From IMG/VR virus record IMGVR_UViG_3300009181_003535, positions 1-26,864 of that record: a DNA stretch of 26,864 bases, one strand, 5' to 3'. The number at the start of each line of letters is the position of its first letter. The first letter of the stretch is position 1. This DNA comes from a virus. The notes beneath the pieces are model-generated. The model saw only the letters and a program-made list of their open reading frames with translations, did not search any database and was not told where the DNA came from. Shown piece by piece: positions 1-10,913 of this stretch. A program made the translations under genes and the position numbers.

Positions 1-122
1 ATCACGCGCCGCGAAGCCTCAATCATACGGGGAACACCGTTTCGACCGCGTACGAGGCTCTTGCTGCCCTGCGCGGCGGGTGCGCCGTACGCAATGAAGG
101 AATGCGCGTTTGGGCCGCTCAT
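1..122 (-). CDS. RusA-like Holliday junction resolvase, partial
   Basis: The gene starts at ATG 122-120 and runs leftward out of the window, so only the N-terminal 40 codons are visible. The start overlaps the queE stop by one base (TAATG), so translation is probably coupled. The protein opens with MSGPNAHSFIAYGAPAAQGS, then K-S-L-V-R-G-R. A beta strand followed by G-x-P-x-x-Q-G-S-K is the usual N-terminus of phage RusA-family crossover junction endonucleases, which cut branched DNA during replication and packaging. The catalytic aspartates of that family lie further downstream and cannot be checked here. The family call rests on this short motif and on the location at the end of a DNA-metabolism operon. 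Confidence 0.6.
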   Translation of the reverse strand, partial: MSGPNAHSFIAYGAPAAQGSKSLVRGRNGVPRMIEASRRV

Positions 123-760
123 TAGCGAACTTTCCACGCCTTATGCATTTGTACGCTCAATCGCCATTCAGGGTTTTCTTTGATCAATTGCAGACACCAC
201 TCAAGCGTGCGACGATCAATGCCAAGCCCATCGAATGCGGGGCTGATCAATTGATGCTGCGCAATGCATTGTGGTTTCGGAATGGCTTGCCCATGCCCTC
301 GCACATATTTGACTTCATCCGCCGAGCGTTGGCGCACGCAATGCTCTGCGACCTTCGGACTGACTGTGATCCAATCAAGCCCAAGGCCATCGACGCATAG
401 CGAGCCGTTTGTTTCGATGGCACACAGGAAGCCTGTGGCGTGCATTGCATCGACGAGTGCTGCGTCAAGTTGCAACGCTGGTTCGCCGCCAGTAAACACA
501 ATCCATGCCTTGTTGCTGCTCCACCATTCAGCAGTCACAGGAACGAGCAAGCGTGCCTCTGCCACAATCTCTTCAAGCGTCATGCGCCGACCTGAAGCGA
601 ACTCTGTGTCGCAATCAAATCCGCCGATAGATTTCGCGCCAGTCTCTTTCGAGCATTGCAGATTGCAGCCTGTGAAACGCACAAAGACAGACATTTGCCC
701 TGCCCTTATGCCTTCGCCTTGTGGGCTGTAAAAAATCTCGTTGATGAAATATTGATTCAC
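122..760 (-). CDS. queE: 7-carboxy-7-deazaguanine synthase (QueE), radical SAM
   Basis: QueE converts 6-carboxytetrahydropterin to 7-carboxy-7-deazaguanine (CDG) with a 4Fe-4S cluster and SAM. Visible landmarks in the 212-aa protein are the N-terminal FINEIFYSPQGEG substrate/SAM segment, cluster cysteines C32, C36 and C50, TGGEP at 90-94, ETNG at 116-119, SPK at 134-136 and the C-terminal QMHKAWKVR typical of the family. The cysteine spacing is CX3CX13C, with an insertion between the second and third cysteines relative to the usual CX3CX2C; the third is still followed by D-T. I chose the GTG start at 760 because it overlaps the queD stop as GTGA and has GGAGG seven bases upstream. A start further upstream at 781 would place that site inside the gene. 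Confidence 0.9.
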   Translation of the reverse strand: MNQYFINEIFYSPQGEGIRAGQMSVFVRFTGCNLQCSKETGAKSIGGFDCDTEFASGRRMTLEEIVAEARLLVPVTAEWWSSNKAWIVFTGGEPALQLDAALVDAMHATGFLCAIETNGSLCVDGLGLDWITVSPKVAEHCVRQRSADEVKYVRGHGQAIPKPQCIAQHQLISPAFDGLGIDRRTLEWCLQLIKENPEWRLSVQMHKAWKVR

Positions 761-1179
761 AGGCTTGCCTCCGCTGAACAATTCTCAGTTTCGCCAATGA
801 CAACGCGAGTAATGCAAACGCCTGTACCGTCCATGAGACTGGGCGCGATGACAGTCAACAGATATTGCGCCATGTTTTCAACGGTTGGATTCGACGGCAT
901 CAAGTACACCTTCTGTTGTGCCACACATGAAATTGCAGCGAGGGCTTCGGTGTCTTGGTCAAACAAGACAAAGCCATGATCCCATTCGGTTTCGAGCCAA
1001 CCGCCCATTCGCGCTTTTAACACGCTGAAATCAATGATGCGCCCGATGCCGTCAAGATCGGTTGCTTGTGCGGTGATCCACACGGTGTAGTTGTGGCCGT
1101 GCAGATTGCTGCATTTGTTCTCATGCCCAAGCACACGATGCCCCGCGCAGAAAGTCAAACGGCGCGTGCAGTTAATCAT
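757..1179 (-). CDS. queD: 6-carboxy-5,6,7,8-tetrahydropterin synthase (QueD)
   Basis: QueD turns dihydroneopterin triphosphate into 6-carboxytetrahydropterin, the substrate of QueE. The 140-aa product has the family layout: H14 in FCAGHR, C23 followed by LHGHNY (H27 and H29), giving the three zinc histidines and the catalytic cysteine, then IIDFSVLK at 48-55, WDHGF at 66-70, and PTVEN near 98-102. The ATG at 1179 overlaps the stop of the upstream dpdA-like gene as ATGA and has GGGAG five bases upstream, so it is preferred over an in-frame GTG at 1191. The gene sits between dpdA and queE, so three steps of one pathway are translated in series. Confidence 0.93.
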   Translation of the reverse strand: MINCTRRLTFCAGHRVLGHENKCSNLHGHNYTVWITAQATDLDGIGRIIDFSVLKARMGGWLETEWDHGFVLFDQDTEALAAISCVAQQKVYLMPSNPTVENMAQYLLTVIAPSLMDGTGVCITRVVIGETENCSAEASL

Positions 1180-1793
1180 TGTGTCTCCCACAAATTCTTT
1201 TCTTTGTTCGCTTGCATCGCTTGTTGGATTTCCCCCAACTTTTGATCAGAATAAATTGCTACGCCAGATCCGTCGCAGGTATCCGCTCCGATCTCTGCGA
1301 ACCGATCAAATCGTTTAAATGTGTTTACGCGCCCAACATGAACAAATTTGCCAAGCGTTTTCGCCGTTCGGACAATGTCTAGAGAAGATTTGCTGTCCTT
1401 CCACGGATCGCAGCCGCCAATGAAGATCGCTTCAATTTCCGACCAAGGAATCTCTAGATCCTCCATGCCGTCCTGCGCCACTAGAGCCAACGGCCAGTTG
1501 CGAACAATCGTATGCCGATGCCTGAAAATCTCCAAAGTCCTTCGACCATCGCCGACAACATCGGGAACCGCTACGAACAGGCATCGCGCTTTGTTTGGTT
1601 CTTCGCGAGCGAGCAACGCGGAGAAATTCTTGTGTCGGAATCCGCTAAACGCTCCATTGTCAATTGCAAAATCCCCCTCCTCTGCGTTCGTGAATCGCGT
1701 TAGGGGAGTCAACAATTGTCCGCGCACCAAATTGGGGTACTGGAGCATGAGTTCCGACACACGATTTCGATTCGCGTCAATAAGAAATTTCAC
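1176..1793 (-). CDS. dpdA: DpdA-like DNA transglycosylase (7-deazaguanine insertion)
   Basis: Phage DpdA proteins are short relatives of tRNA-guanine transglycosylase that exchange guanine in DNA for a 7-deazaguanine base. This 205-aa protein shows the pattern expected of the phage group: IDNGAFSG at 44-51 (D45 a possible active-site Asp), VPDVVGDG at 76-83, VAQDG at 106-110, FIGG at 124-127 (base-binding loop), HVGRVNT at 152-158 and ADTCDGSG at 170-177 (D171 and D174 candidates for the nucleophile). No zinc-binding Cys cluster of the tRNA enzymes is visible. The GTG at 1793 overlaps the upstream stop as GTGA and has AGAGG seven bases upstream; a TTG at 1829 is the less likely alternative. 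Next to queD and queE the DNA-modification role is strong, but the DpdA subtype and exact base cannot be told from sequence alone. Confidence 0.85.
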   Translation of the reverse strand: MKFLIDANRNRVSELMLQYPNLVRGQLLTPLTRFTNAEEGDFAIDNGAFSGFRHKNFSALLAREEPNKARCLFVAVPDVVGDGRRTLEIFRHRHTIVRNWPLALVAQDGMEDLEIPWSEIEAIFIGGCDPWKDSKSSLDIVRTAKTLGKFVHVGRVNTFKRFDRFAEIGADTCDGSGVAIYSDQKLGEIQQAMQANKEKNLWETQ

Positions 1794-2089
1794 GCGCCAA
1801 CCTCTGTCTTCTCCTCGAAACAGTCCCAACCGCGCTCAAGCGCAATCTCGTCGGCGGTGAGTGCGCACGGCCCTCCTATAAATTGTGCGGCGTGGTAGGT
1901 TTCCAAAGCCAGTCCCCTACACGCAAGTTGCCGCGCCTCGTCGCGCTCGCACCGCACTCTCACGATTTCAACGAGGCAGCGAGTGTCATGTTCGCAGCCG
2001 CCGCAACATCGTGTAGCGGGTAATGCTCCTAAGCATCGACATTGATCAATGCGTTGACGGAGGATCGTCACGATGTCAGGATTCGTCAT
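1790..2089 (-). CDS. Cys-rich hypothetical protein
   Basis: Not recognised. The 99-aa product has a dense cysteine block at about residues 17-38, reading CRCLG, then RCCGGCEHDTRCL, then RVRC, which could bind zinc or another metal. A second, looser set of cysteines lies near residues 48, 65 and 81. The ATG at 2089 has a very good site, GAGGAGG six bases upstream; a TTG at 2122 is in frame but unsupported. It overlaps the 40-aa gene upstream by 14 bases and the dpdA-like gene downstream by four (GTGA), so it is coexpressed with the modification enzymes. An accessory role in that pathway is possible but only by association. Confidence 0.75.
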   Translation of the reverse strand: MTNPDIVTILRQRIDQCRCLGALPATRCCGGCEHDTRCLVEIVRVRCERDEARQLACRGLALETYHAAQFIGGPCALTADEIALERGWDCFEEKTEVGA

Positions 2090-2198
2090 GCTCGTCCTCC
2101 TCAATGGTAACGATGGGTGCAAGCACTCTGTACAGCGCGTACAGACACGCGCCGAGCGTACACGCCGAAGCGATTGCGCTGATGATGTCGATGGTCAT
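2076..2198 (-). CDS. 40-aa predicted membrane microprotein
   Basis: This short reading frame encodes MTIDIISAIASACTLGACLY followed by ALYRVLAPIV and an acidic tail T-I-E-E-D-E-H-D-E-S. One hydrophobic span, about residues 5-30, fits a single transmembrane helix with a charged C-terminus. The ATG at 2198 overlaps the stop of the 78-aa gene as ATGA and has GGAG seven bases upstream. Its end overlaps the start of the Cys-rich gene, so it fills an otherwise unexplained gap in the operon. The position among early genes argues against a classical holin, but no function is recognised. Confidence 0.65.
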   Translation of the reverse strand: MTIDIISAIASACTLGACLYALYRVLAPIVTIEEDEHDES

Positions 2199-7109: not shown

Positions 7110-10100
7110 ATGTGTACGAACAAAAACAACTTCGCAGCGCGTGAAACGCAATACTACGCGGGCGATGCCTTGCTAGGAAAAACGACGGCTGACATTGTCA
7201 CCGTCTCGGCTGAAAAATACAAGACAATTTTCCCCGACGCGGTCAGCGGTTGGTCGTACGACTTCAACAAGACAACCGCACTTCGGGACGGAAAAACCTA
7301 TCGGTACGGGGTAGTCAACGGATCTGCTCGCGAAATCACGCGCATGGTTCTGTTTGCGCAGACTATCAACCCGACAAAATGCGATGCGCGCTGCCGCAAC
7401 GCTCGCGGCCCTATGTGCGACTGCTCATGCCGTGGGAACAATCATGGAAAGGGCGCAGGGTCATTCGCCCGCGCCCACAACATCTCGTTGCCATCAACGA
7501 AGCGAAAACTCAACATCGACGAGGCGACATCCGCGCTCAGTTCGATGGGGTATCGCATGGGTAATGTCCGACACTCGCTCGCGGACAAGACCTCGTACTG
7601 GTCGGTGACGACACCTACGGGTTCCGTTGTCGAGGTGGCCGCGAACAAACTGACGGACTTCGTCTACGGCAAGATCAAGAATCTGAACGCGCAGAGGTAC
7701 ACCGAGACGACCTACGAGGTGCTGTTCCCTGACGAAGATGAGGACACGCAATTTATCGACTCGAAGGAAGCCGCGATCAAGGTCGCACGCCAGTACGCCG
7801 CGAAGGGTTGCGCCGTAGAACTTTCGCAAGTCATCAAAACTTGGCGCAGCAAGGCGGAAGCCGATGCGGCTCAGATTCCCACGAACACAAAGGAAACGCC
7901 AATGCGTTTTGTCAAGAATCTGAACGCGAAGGGGACGACAATGAAGTCGATCAACAAGCGACTTTCTAGCATGGTCATCAACGAATTGAACCATGCGCTT
8001 GAAATGGCGGAAATGGACGGGGAACAAGGAATCGCTCGGGAGGTGCGAGCGGTGCTTGCTAGCCCAACCGTCGAAACTCTTAAGGCGCATCCTCTTGCGA
8101 TCAAAGAGATCAAATACAAACTTGAAATTGCTCAGGACAACGAAGAGCGAAGTCGCGTCCGAGCGTACGAAAACCTTCTTAAATCGGTGAGCAACCGAAA
8201 GGCGCAGAACATGAACAGCACAGGCGCAAGGGCGAAGTTTGGCTCCGACACGATTTCGGTCAACATGAATGCGAAAAGGTATTTGACGATCCTCAATCGC
8301 GTCAAGCCTGATGAGGGTCAGGAGCAATTTCTTGCGCGTGTTAAGGCGCGACTGCAAGAGGTTGTCAACGACACGGGAAAAATGATCCGCAACCCTGATT
8401 TGGAATCAGAATTGGGTGGTTGGCAGGGTTCCGAGTTGTCGGAAATTCTGTCCGAACTTGCAGGAAGCAGCAGCGGTTTGATTCGCACCTTGCGCCTATG
8501 GCTTGGCAATTTCTCCCGCACGGGCGCGAAGTCTCGTTTTGCAATGCTCAATAAAGCCGAAGTATTGAAGGATCATAAAGAGCGCGTAGTGTGGTTGAAG
8601 CAACACGCAGGGCAGTCAAACCAACTGCGACTGGCTGACATTTACCTTGAGGCAGGTCAAGGAGATCTAAATCAATTAGTGTCGCAAAAGCAGATGGATA
8701 AGACAGAGTGGAAAACTCTGATGCATGAATTGGAAACTGCTTACCTTCGCGTAAAGCATGGAGCAGATGCGCAAACGCATACTTCTTACTCCCGCGTCGG
8801 CGCGAAGGCAAGGTTTGATCGTCGAATTGAACTCGACAAATGGACAAGTCCAAAGGGAACGCGATACACCGCAGGATTTCATATTGAAGGTGGCGGAACC
8901 TCGTTTGCCCCGTTTGTTTCGGCGACCTACTCGGACGGCGGCGAGCAAATGATGAGTACGAGCGCGCCTTCGTTTAAGTCAGAAAAGGGCGCACGGAAAT
9001 GGCTTGCCAATTTCATGGAACGAATGTATTCGCGCACGGGGACTTTCTCCCGCGTCGGCGCAAAGTCCACGCACGCGGTCAACCCGTTTGACCTCCCCGC
9101 GAAGCCCGAGGACTGGAACGGCAAAACCATCACGCTGAACGGCAAGCAAATCAAGGTAAAGCGCACCACAGGCGCGTACAGCAGTTGGCTTGATTACGAC
9201 CTGTTCGATCTCTCTTCTGGCAAGCGAGTCAACAGCGTCGTCAAGGCTCAACTCGACGACGCTTGGAGACGAGGAAAGATCCGCGACATCTTCTCCCGCA
9301 CAGGAAAAACATCAATGGCACAATCAGATTTCAAGGTAGGTGATCAGGTCCATCTCGGATTTGCTCAAAAGGGCGGAACGGGATTTGACGGGATTATCAC
9401 GAAAATTGAGGGAGAAACGGTTTACATCAAAAGTCCCGAAGAAGGTCGATATGGCGCAAGAACTTATAAGGGATTAGTAAGTTCGCTTACGCATGGGTAC
9501 GCGGGATATCACGCAGACCAACATTCCCGCACGGGCGCGAAGTCCTTGCACGCGACGACGGATCAGGTTGCCGATCTGTTTAAAACGCTGTCCGATGTCG
9601 AGCGCGCAAGCATGAACGGTGATACCGCTAAAATGCAGACGCTGTTGAAGTCGCTTGCTCCAATGGTGGACCGTGATCGCGCCAAACTTCCAAAAGATGC
9701 GGTTGCGTATTACGACGAGATGCGCCGCAAGGCAGGTATGTCCCGAATTGGCTCAAAAGCAAACATGAACAAACTCACCAACCATCTCCAGAAGATTTCC
9801 GCATCGCTCGGTTTCAAGCCTTCATCCATCACGATGGAGGACGGCGTAGCCAAGATCAATTTCGCGCAGCGCGATGGCTCCTCGGGTCGTCTCGGCGTGA
9901 GCCTTCGCAAGCCCCTGCTCGACGCGGGCGTGACCTCGGACGCGATCACCGCGACCGCTGATCAGGTAAGCATCAACTTCTCGCAGGGCGCGAAGGCGGC
10001 GTTTGGCTCGGGCGACAGTTTTATGGTCGAGGGCTATGTCGGAAACGCGCTCACGGGGGGACGCTCCGCTCGCACGATTGAAGAAGCGGAGCATTACGCG

Positions 10101-10913
10101 AAGGCGATGCTTGCAAGCATTAAGAGTGGAAAAACAGACGGAAAGCCCGTTAAGGTTGAGATTCAAGAAATTAAGGATTACCAGCCACAAGGAGTCATCA
10201 AAACCCTTCATTCCCGCACGGGCGGCAAGGCGGCGTTCGGTCTTGGCTCGCAGAATCGCGCCTTTCTCGGCAAGGTTGACGCACGCACGCGAAGCGAAAT
10301 CCTCGCGAACATCGCTGCCCATTACGGAATCAGCGCATCCGAAGCGATGGCTGAAGTCAGTTCAGACGAGTCCGAGCATCTGCTTGAGTATGTGACTGGC
10401 GCAATGCGTTCCGCTGTGTCTATCCTCGTGCAGAAGTACGGATTCTCTCGCACAGGCGCGAAGGCGGCGTTTGCTGCCGAAATCATTCAGAAGTTGTCGG
10501 GAGGATGGGTAATCGAACGCGAGGGAGGGATTCTGTATCTCGCAAAGGGAAACGAAGCGATTCCTGTCCCTAGCGTTGAACGGGCGTTGGAACTGCACAA
10601 GTCATCTGTCGAAGGGCGATTGGCGCGGAGAACTGGTGGTTTCATGTCCCGCACGGGCGCGAAGGCGGCGTTTGCTCACGCGAATCAACAGATTGCGGAC
10701 GGCGTAGCGCAACTCCTTTCGGTGCTTGGCTTCGCGGCAATGGCAGAAGAAGCAAAGACCACGACCGACGCGGACACGCTCAAGCGCATGATCAATGTTG
10801 CCCGAAGGCGTGCCAAGGGAAGCGAACAAGCCGACCGTTTTAACACCTTGGCGGACAAACTGGAGCGGATGCTGATGTCTCGCAGCGGCGGTAAGGCGGA
10901 GAGTGGGCGATGA
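7110..10913 (+). CDS. modular repeat-linked protein, candidate polyprotein
   Basis: A 1267-aa protein of unknown function between terminase and portal. Residues 91-112 form a cysteine cluster, CX3CX7CXCXCX4H, of zinc-knuckle type. From residue 368 a short motif recurs, with consensus F/M/H/Y-S-R-T-G-A-K-A/S-x-F/H. It starts near residues 368, 468, 560, 640/646 (double), 728, 805, 877, 957, 1034, 1112, 1179 and 1256. Spacing is mostly 67-82 residues, up to 100. The segments between are unlike each other: mostly helical (468-559), beta-rich with an SH3/KOW-like VGDQVHLGF part (737-804), and helical again (1190-1255). The last motif is only a few residues from the stop. Several internal ATGs have good SD sites (7902, 7941, 8211, 9738). 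It may be a cleaved polyprotein, a packaged cargo protein or a fusion of small genes. ATG 7110 has no clear SD. Confidence 0.8.
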   Translation: MCTNKNNFAARETQYYAGDALLGKTTADIVTVSAEKYKTIFPDAVSGWSYDFNKTTALRDGKTYRYGVVNGSAREITRMVLFAQTINPTKCDARCRNARGPMCDCSCRGNNHGKGAGSFARAHNISLPSTKRKLNIDEATSALSSMGYRMGNVRHSLADKTSYWSVTTPTGSVVEVAANKLTDFVYGKIKNLNAQRYTETTYEVLFPDEDEDTQFIDSKEAAIKVARQYAAKGCAVELSQVIKTWRSKAEADAAQIPTNTKETPMRFVKNLNAKGTTMKSINKRLSSMVINELNHALEMAEMDGEQGIAREVRAVLASPTVETLKAHPLAIKEIKYKLEIAQDNEERSRVRAYENLLKSVSNRKAQNMNSTGARAKFGSDTISVNMNAKRYLTILNRVKPDEGQEQFLARVKARLQEVVNDTGKMIRNPDLESELGGWQGSELSEILSELAGSSSGLIRTLRLWLGNFSRTGAKSRFAMLNKAEVLKDHKERVVWLKQHAGQSNQLRLADIYLEAGQGDLNQLVSQKQMDKTEWKTLMHELETAYLRVKHGADAQTHTSYSRVGAKARFDRRIELDKWTSPKGTRYTAGFHIEGGGTSFAPFVSATYSDGGEQMMSTSAPSFKSEKGARKWLANFMERMYSRTGTFSRVGAKSTHAVNPFDLPAKPEDWNGKTITLNGKQIKVKRTTGAYSSWLDYDLFDLSSGKRVNSVVKAQLDDAWRRGKIRDIFSRTGKTSMAQSDFKVGDQVHLGFAQKGGTGFDGIITKIEGETVYIKSPEEGRYGARTYKGLVSSLTHGYAGYHADQHSRTGAKSLHATTDQVADLFKTLSDVERASMNGDTAKMQTLLKSLAPMVDRDRAKLPKDAVAYYDEMRRKAGMSRIGSKANMNKLTNHLQKISASLGFKPSSITMEDGVAKINFAQRDGSSGRLGVSLRKPLLDAGVTSDAITATADQVSINFSQGAKAAFGSGDSFMVEGYVGNALTGGRSARTIEEAEHYAKAMLASIKSGKTDGKPVKVEIQEIKDYQPQGVIKTLHSRTGGKAAFGLGSQNRAFLGKVDARTRSEILANIAAHYGISASEAMAEVSSDESEHLLEYVTGAMRSAVSILVQKYGFSRTGAKAAFAAEIIQKLSGGWVIEREGGILYLAKGNEAIPVPSVERALELHKSSVEGRLARRTGGFMSRTGAKAAFAHANQQIADGVAQLLSVLGFAAMAEEAKTTTDADTLKRMINVARRRAKGSEQADRFNTLADKLERMLMSRSGGKAESGR
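8208..10913 (+). repeat. dispersed coding repeat, about 12 copies (SRTGAK motif)
   Basis: DNA copies of the linker start near 8211, 8511, 8787, 9027/9045, 9291, 9522, 9738, 9978, 10209, 10443, 10644 and 10875. The best copies share TCCCGCACGGGCGCGAAG or differ by one to three bases, and the last four full copies continue with GCGGCGTT. Similarity at the DNA level is higher than the protein motif needs, so the copies are either recent or kept alike by recombination. Confidence 0.85.

Follow-up and report, generated by a model that had tools for sequence, protein, structure and literature searches.

The window analyzed here, 26,864 bases in length, is a linear and incomplete IMG/VR fragment of a freshwater phage. 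At its left edge, four genes and a fifth that is cut off lie on the minus strand, all pointing toward the edge. These features are listed below.

1790..2122, minus strand: orf4, directly upstream of sDpdA; GTGA overlap with sDpdA; no Pfam or PHROG match
1176..1793, minus strand: sDpdA, predicted compact DpdA-like DNA guanine transglycosylase; GTG start, 205 aa; phrog_15826 (4.9e-36)
757..1179, minus strand: queD, 6-carboxytetrahydropterin synthase; ATG start, 140 aa; PF01242 (9e-26), phrog_2389 (9e-38)
122..760, minus strand: queE, 7-carboxy-7-deazaguanine synthase; GTG start, 212 aa; phrog_2076 (3.5e-28), TIGR04508 (2.1e-46)
1..122, minus strand: next ORF of the operon, truncated by the fragment edge; 40 aa visible; TAATG overlap with queE

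The first-pass annotation had placed three coupled genes at 122–1793, and these coordinates proved to be exact. The dpdA/queD (ATGA) and queD/queE (GTGA) junctions are overlaps of 4 bp each, the orf4/dpdA junction is GTGA, and the queE/next ORF junction is TAATG, i.e., the pattern of classic translational coupling. Chance ORFs were ruled out by the presence of four consecutive coupled genes, two of which have strong family matches. The gene orf4 has a counterpart with 56% identity at the same position upstream of sDpdA in locus L002. Based on their family matches, we regard the identities of both QueD and QueE as secure; QueD scored 71 bits against TIGR03367, under the 89-bit equivalog cut-off, and QueE scored 158 bits against TIGR04508, under the 240-bit equivalog cut-off. 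By inspection, QueD contains the motifs KCSNLHGH and WDH, which hold the active-site Cys and the zinc His of the PTPS family. The radical-SAM cysteines of QueE are spaced Cx3Cx13C, a spacing common to 68 of 95 relatives; it is unlike CxxxCxxC and unlike the Cx14CxxC type, and the position of the middle cluster ligand seems to have shifted.

The truncated ORF at the edge had no Pfam or PHROG match, and a blastp comparison with the ORFs of all loci, including 82 FolE, gave no match. FolE as the gene directly beyond queE, its position in most QueE relatives, is not supported: none of the known FolE starts resembles the 40 residues that can be seen. The ORF is perhaps RusA-like, a suspicion formed by eye, but RusA was not accepted as its identity because Pfam and PHROG were silent and the single match in the phage collection, a RusA-like resolvase at E = 7, is too weak. 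Beyond this operon, the window consists mainly of a structural module that includes TerL, a Mu-like (DUF935-type) portal, head morphogenesis, and major head proteins. Between TerL and the portal, a protein of 1267 aa (7110–10913, plus strand) contains about ten spaced copies of a [FYHM]SR[TVI]G[AGS]K[AS]xFA-like motif, as if a recurring linker or processing site joined its modules.

We then considered whether sDpdA is a DpdA. No Pfam family, including the TGT family PF01702, matched it at E ≤ 1, and its sole PHROG match, phrog_15826, is annotated as "unknown function." Its relatives occur in 24 of 50,697 annotated phage records, some under the name "DpdA-like tRNA-guanine transglycosylase." The similarity to experimentally characterized DpdA is remote and is not detected by pairwise BLAST. 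A family profile of 48 sequences, built without rows from the annotated phage records, was compared with a profile of 27 standard phage DpdA, including that of phage 9g, and hhalign returned 94% (E = 1.4e-7) over 136 columns. In the family alignment, D78, H152, and D174 are present in 48 of 48 rows and D45 in 47 of 48, and D45, D78, H152, and D174 align with D72, D114, H196, and D215 of 9g DpdA, respectively. The loss of the conserved His196 is the hallmark of DpdA2, the Vibrio phage nt-1 type (PMC6884629); since the invariant H152 occupies this column, sDpdA is not a DpdA2 by this test. A paired-Cys zinc motif (CxC or CxxC) was not found in the sDpdA of the window, L002, or L003. Searches of PDB sequences with sDpdA and with its profile gave no useful match, and the DpdA profile reached the DNA-guanine transglycosylase 7ui4 at E = 0.67 only. 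The gene is under purifying selection: dN was 0.055 and dS 0.239 (dN/dS ∼0.23) in comparison with the 90% identical relative in L002.

The AlphaFold2 model of sDpdA is a TIM barrel (pLDDT 95.5, pTM 0.91). Of the 35 Foldseek matches in the PDB at E ≤ 0.001, 27 were TGT/arcTGT chains, mostly repeat entries of one enzyme, and the matches in BFVD included viral DpdA-type proteins. The top rows of VIA-align were all pyruvate kinases, which we read as generic TIM-barrel likeness; because such barrels come first, the fold alone is insufficient to prove the family, and the motifs and the genomic context carry the argument. The DpdA identity of sDpdA is therefore based on the profile comparison, the motifs, the structure, and the gene neighborhood taken together. 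By sequence criteria, sDpdA belongs to a compact family that is separate from, and remotely homologous to, the 9g-type DpdA. The first-pass annotation had called it a DpdA-type enzyme coupled to QueD and QueE; this is supported, except that the protein belongs to this compact family rather than to the standard phage type. To our knowledge, no member of the compact family has been biochemically characterized.

To describe the neighborhood of the family, 80 viral and 72 genome loci were gathered and scanned with profiles for QueC, QueD, QueE, FolE, standard DpdA, and the Vut_1/YhhQ transporter. Linkage was counted in metagenome fragments on a non-redundant basis (near-copies removed at 75% identity), and phages that carry a complete canonical cassette were excluded. 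The results showed that 28 of 29 partner matches (QueC, QueD, QueE, or YhhQ) were within 2.5 kb of sDpdA, all on the same strand, where about nine were expected (p = 6.5e-14). QueD was present in 7 of 37 sDpdA loci vs. 185 of the 50,697 phage records. In an unsupervised clustering of the neighbors of 37 core loci, QueD, QueC, and QueE were among the commonest co-directional families, and the transporter ranked lower. The partner sets were QueC alone (many contigs, one clade), QueD alone, QueE alone, QueD with QueE (the window and L020), QueC with QueD and QueE (L103 and L106, in the order QueD–sDpdA–QueC–QueE), the transporter alone, and nothing; most sDpdA phages have no que gene. The transporter was the sole partner in 12 of 79 rows, among them those of the mycobacteriophage Majeke, of ReqiPine5 and Aoka, and of actinobacterial genome loci. 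On the sDpdA tree, the presence or absence of partners changed at least 14 times and the partner set at least 16 times.

Several loci have additional neighbors. In ReqiPine5 (L009:14935–16566) and R6L (L012:14881–17386), a PAPS-reductase-like PP-loop gene adjoins or closely follows sDpdA, and it might be a stand-in for another supply or modification step. In Vibrio R29Z, Sonali, phiG7, and SHIN8, sDpdA is a second gene beside a complete canonical DpdA cassette; in these phages, it may have a second specificity or serve a different role. In phiG7 (L005:12016–12608) and SHIN8 (L013:8016–8608), both of which carry the full preQ0–DpdA cassette, sDpdA is broken into two overlapping ORFs, with the gene for the DNA polymerase clamp on one side and that for DNA polymerase on the other.

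The first-pass annotation had seen neither QueC nor FolE, and we likewise found neither in the 26.9-kb record, which ends 121 bases past queE. A search of 26 whole sDpdA records detected QueC in seven, QueD in five, QueE in three, and FolE in none. The second sDpdA–queD–queE locus, L020, has no QueC or FolE in 13.4 kb, and other phage genes, one of them a RusA, lie beyond its queE. In L002, the locus closest to the window by sDpdA, QueC, QueD, QueE, and FolE are all absent from 41.5 kb, so the queD–queE pair is optional. L001 was discarded as independent support: it matches the window without a single difference, down to the base at which it stops, and is probably the same assembly. Nearly all relatives of the window QueE are located in cDpdA–QueD–QueE–FolE cassettes, with QueC or a Vut_1 transporter in its place, and the queD–queE pair therefore looks like an acquisition from a complete cassette that became attached to sDpdA. 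The sDpdA–queD–queE arrangement occurs in two separate clades, those of the window and L020, and the attachment apparently took place independently in each.

From the gene identities, the coupling, the conserved catalytic residues, and the recurrent linkage, we infer that the locus encodes a mini-DpdA module for DNA modification in which the host supplies the missing steps, and we assign this reading a probability of roughly 0.55. FolE, a housekeeping enzyme of the host, would make dihydroneopterin triphosphate, from which the phage QueD and QueE would raise the supply of CDG; host QueC would convert CDG into preQ0; and sDpdA would replace guanine in the phage DNA with a 7-deazaguanine base, for which preQ0 (7-cyano-7-deazaguanine) is the likeliest candidate. 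The modified base would then shield the phage DNA from host restriction. A role in 7-deazaguanine DNA modification, already proposed by the first-pass annotation, is likely in view of the catalytic residues and the linkage to genes of preQ0 supply. The same annotation had left the base open between CDG and preQ0 or a derivative made with QueC from elsewhere. PreQ0 is favored here on comparative grounds: in sister phages, the same enzyme is accompanied by QueC or by a transporter, and the substrate that these two have in common is preQ0. In E. coli, YhhQ imports preQ0 and preQ1, and the known members of the transporter family import preQ0/preQ1 or, in one case, queuine (PMC11130926). Judged by this partner pattern, preQ0 or a preQ0-derived base, with host FolE and QueC filling in, is the more likely end product and CDG the less likely one, and the pattern fits dependence on the host better than a private CDG branch. 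There are precedents for such dependence: MED16 and Salmonella phage 7-11 have DpdA alone and dADG in their DNA, the precursor presumably coming from the host, and phage Orion is unmodified in a host that is unable to make preQ0 (PMC8306585). We also searched 28 host genomes for QueC and QueD, and there was no clear correlation between the partner genes and gaps in the host pathway; where a transporter adjoins sDpdA, 3 of 7 hosts had QueC above the cut-off, compared with 12 of the 21 other hosts.

Two other explanations concern the supply of the base. The phage may encode a full preQ0 pathway, with QueC and perhaps FolE in the unsequenced remainder of its genome. This is rather unlikely, even though the fragment stops 121 bases past queE and the complete cassettes that house most relatives of its QueE have FolE directly downstream. 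A near relative, L096 (IMGVR_UViG_3300042540_001192), has QueC and QueE together at about 36.3–37.8 kb, some 10 kb from sDpdA, which is consistent with a distant QueC; QueD and FolE are absent from the 49 kb of this record. However, the ORF after queE is unlike FolE, the 26 records contain FolE in no case and QueC in only seven, and L020 lacks both. Alternatively, CDG itself could be the inserted base (dCDG), in which case a minimal two-step CDG pathway and an inserting enzyme would need no QueC step. QueD and QueE alone end at CDG, L020 repeats the arrangement independently with neither QueC nor FolE in its 13.4 kb, and CDG was raised as a candidate for phage Bipper, which has no QueC, by Hutinet 2019 (PMC6884629). 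Nevertheless, we consider insertion of CDG improbable, because close relatives of sDpdA have QueC alone or a YhhQ-type transporter, which points to preQ0, because L020 falls in the same sDpdA clade as QueC-linked members, and because preQ0 is more likely than CDG to be available in the hosts of the many sDpdA phages without que genes. Cui et al. (2023) reportedly described four further phage 7-deazaguanines, and dCDG is said to be among them.

The remaining explanations concern the activity of sDpdA itself. It could be a divergent TIM-barrel enzyme with another job on modified bases; it might, for example, remove or remodel 7-deazaguanines or defend the phage against a host system in which they are used. 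Its position beside a full canonical cassette in phiG7, SHIN8, Vibrio R29Z, and Sonali, and the annotation of an Erythrobacter relative as a DarB-like antirestriction protein, would suit such a job, but sDpdA retains all three of the DpdA Asp residues as well as the His, and a neighborhood in which one or two supply genes are the only partners suits an inserting enzyme better than a remover, so we think this very unlikely. We give even less credence to a role in tRNA, in which the phage would boost queuosine in host tRNA with sDpdA acting on tRNA or as an accessory. Such a role was proposed for 48 phages that have que genes but no DpdA (PMC6884629), whereas most sDpdA phages have no que genes at all, and 205 aa leave no room for the TGT zinc subdomain. 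Nor do the sequence features point to a place among tRNA-acting enzymes, which the first-pass annotation had named as evidence against its proposal: sDpdA has neither a Pfam TGT match nor the paired-cysteine motif, and it is homologous to phage DpdA.

Among known systems, the 9g/CAjan-type DpdA (PMC6884629) shares with sDpdA remote homology over 136 columns, the counterparts of D72, D114, H196, and D215, and linkage with preQ0 genes. It differs in its length of roughly 230–380 aa vs. about 205 aa, it is not found by BLAST, and the partners of sDpdA are partial (QueD, QueE, QueC, or a transporter), with FolE missing; sDpdA is sometimes a second gene beside a 9g-type DpdA. The singleton-DpdA phages MED16 and 7-11 resemble the window in the use of a host-made precursor, their product being dADG with traces of dPreQ0 in MED16 (PMC8306585), but they carry DpdA alone, whereas the window adds two pathway genes. 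MED16, SEN1, and 7-11 were not recovered as members of the sDpdA family: tblastn with three members gave no match to them in the phage collection, which may not include MED16 and 7-11. The Mycobacterium phage Bipper (queD, queE, folE, dpdA) also lacks queC, and CDG was suggested as its possible base, but it has FolE and a long DpdA of 357 aa. Fishburnevirus-type mycobacteriophages (Majeke and others) and Arthrobacter phages have members of the same family as sDpdA, with ∼32% identity, and the Sonali member matched phrog_15826 at 4.1e-90. In Majeke, ReqiPine5, and Aoka, the neighbor of sDpdA is the Vut_1/YhhQ transporter, whereas in the window it is QueD/QueE.

DpdA, partial pathways, DpdA-only phages, and phage YhhQ were already known (PMC6884629). 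As far as the literature searched shows, the compact family, its function-unknown PHROG, the patchwork in which supply genes occur singly, the consistent lack of FolE, and the repeated presence of a transporter next door are apparently undescribed, and prior notice is possible. A 2019 survey found that phage YhhQ homologs correlate with no phage group (PMC6884629); here, YhhQ homologs adjoin a compact DpdA, which bears on this open point. We put at about even odds the broader proposal that phrog_15826 comprises minimal DNA 7-deazaguanine transglycosylases of ∼205 aa without the zinc subdomain, a plug-in to which phages repeatedly add one or two functions of preQ0 supply (importer, QueC, QueD, or QueE) while the host provides the rest; in the queD–queE version, the inserted base could even be CDG. 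If this is true, a viral family listed as unknown would gain a function, many uncultivated phages would join those expected to carry 7-deazaguanine DNA, hypermodification would be workable with an incomplete phage-encoded pathway, and, at 205 aa, the enzyme would offer a convenient minimal system for studying DNA recognition by DpdA.

The cassettes with standard DpdA gave two further observations. In these, QueC only was present in 42, a Vut_1 (YhhQ-type) transporter only in 11 (L015, L017, L023, L024, L026, L029, L045, L054, L060, L084, and L086), both in one, and neither in eight, i.e., near mutual exclusion. The transporter cassettes keep QueD, QueE, and FolE, which would be odd if preQ0 were simply imported. 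Additionally, two standard-type dpdA genes are in tandem within one cassette at L023:669–2416 and L045:7081–8828.
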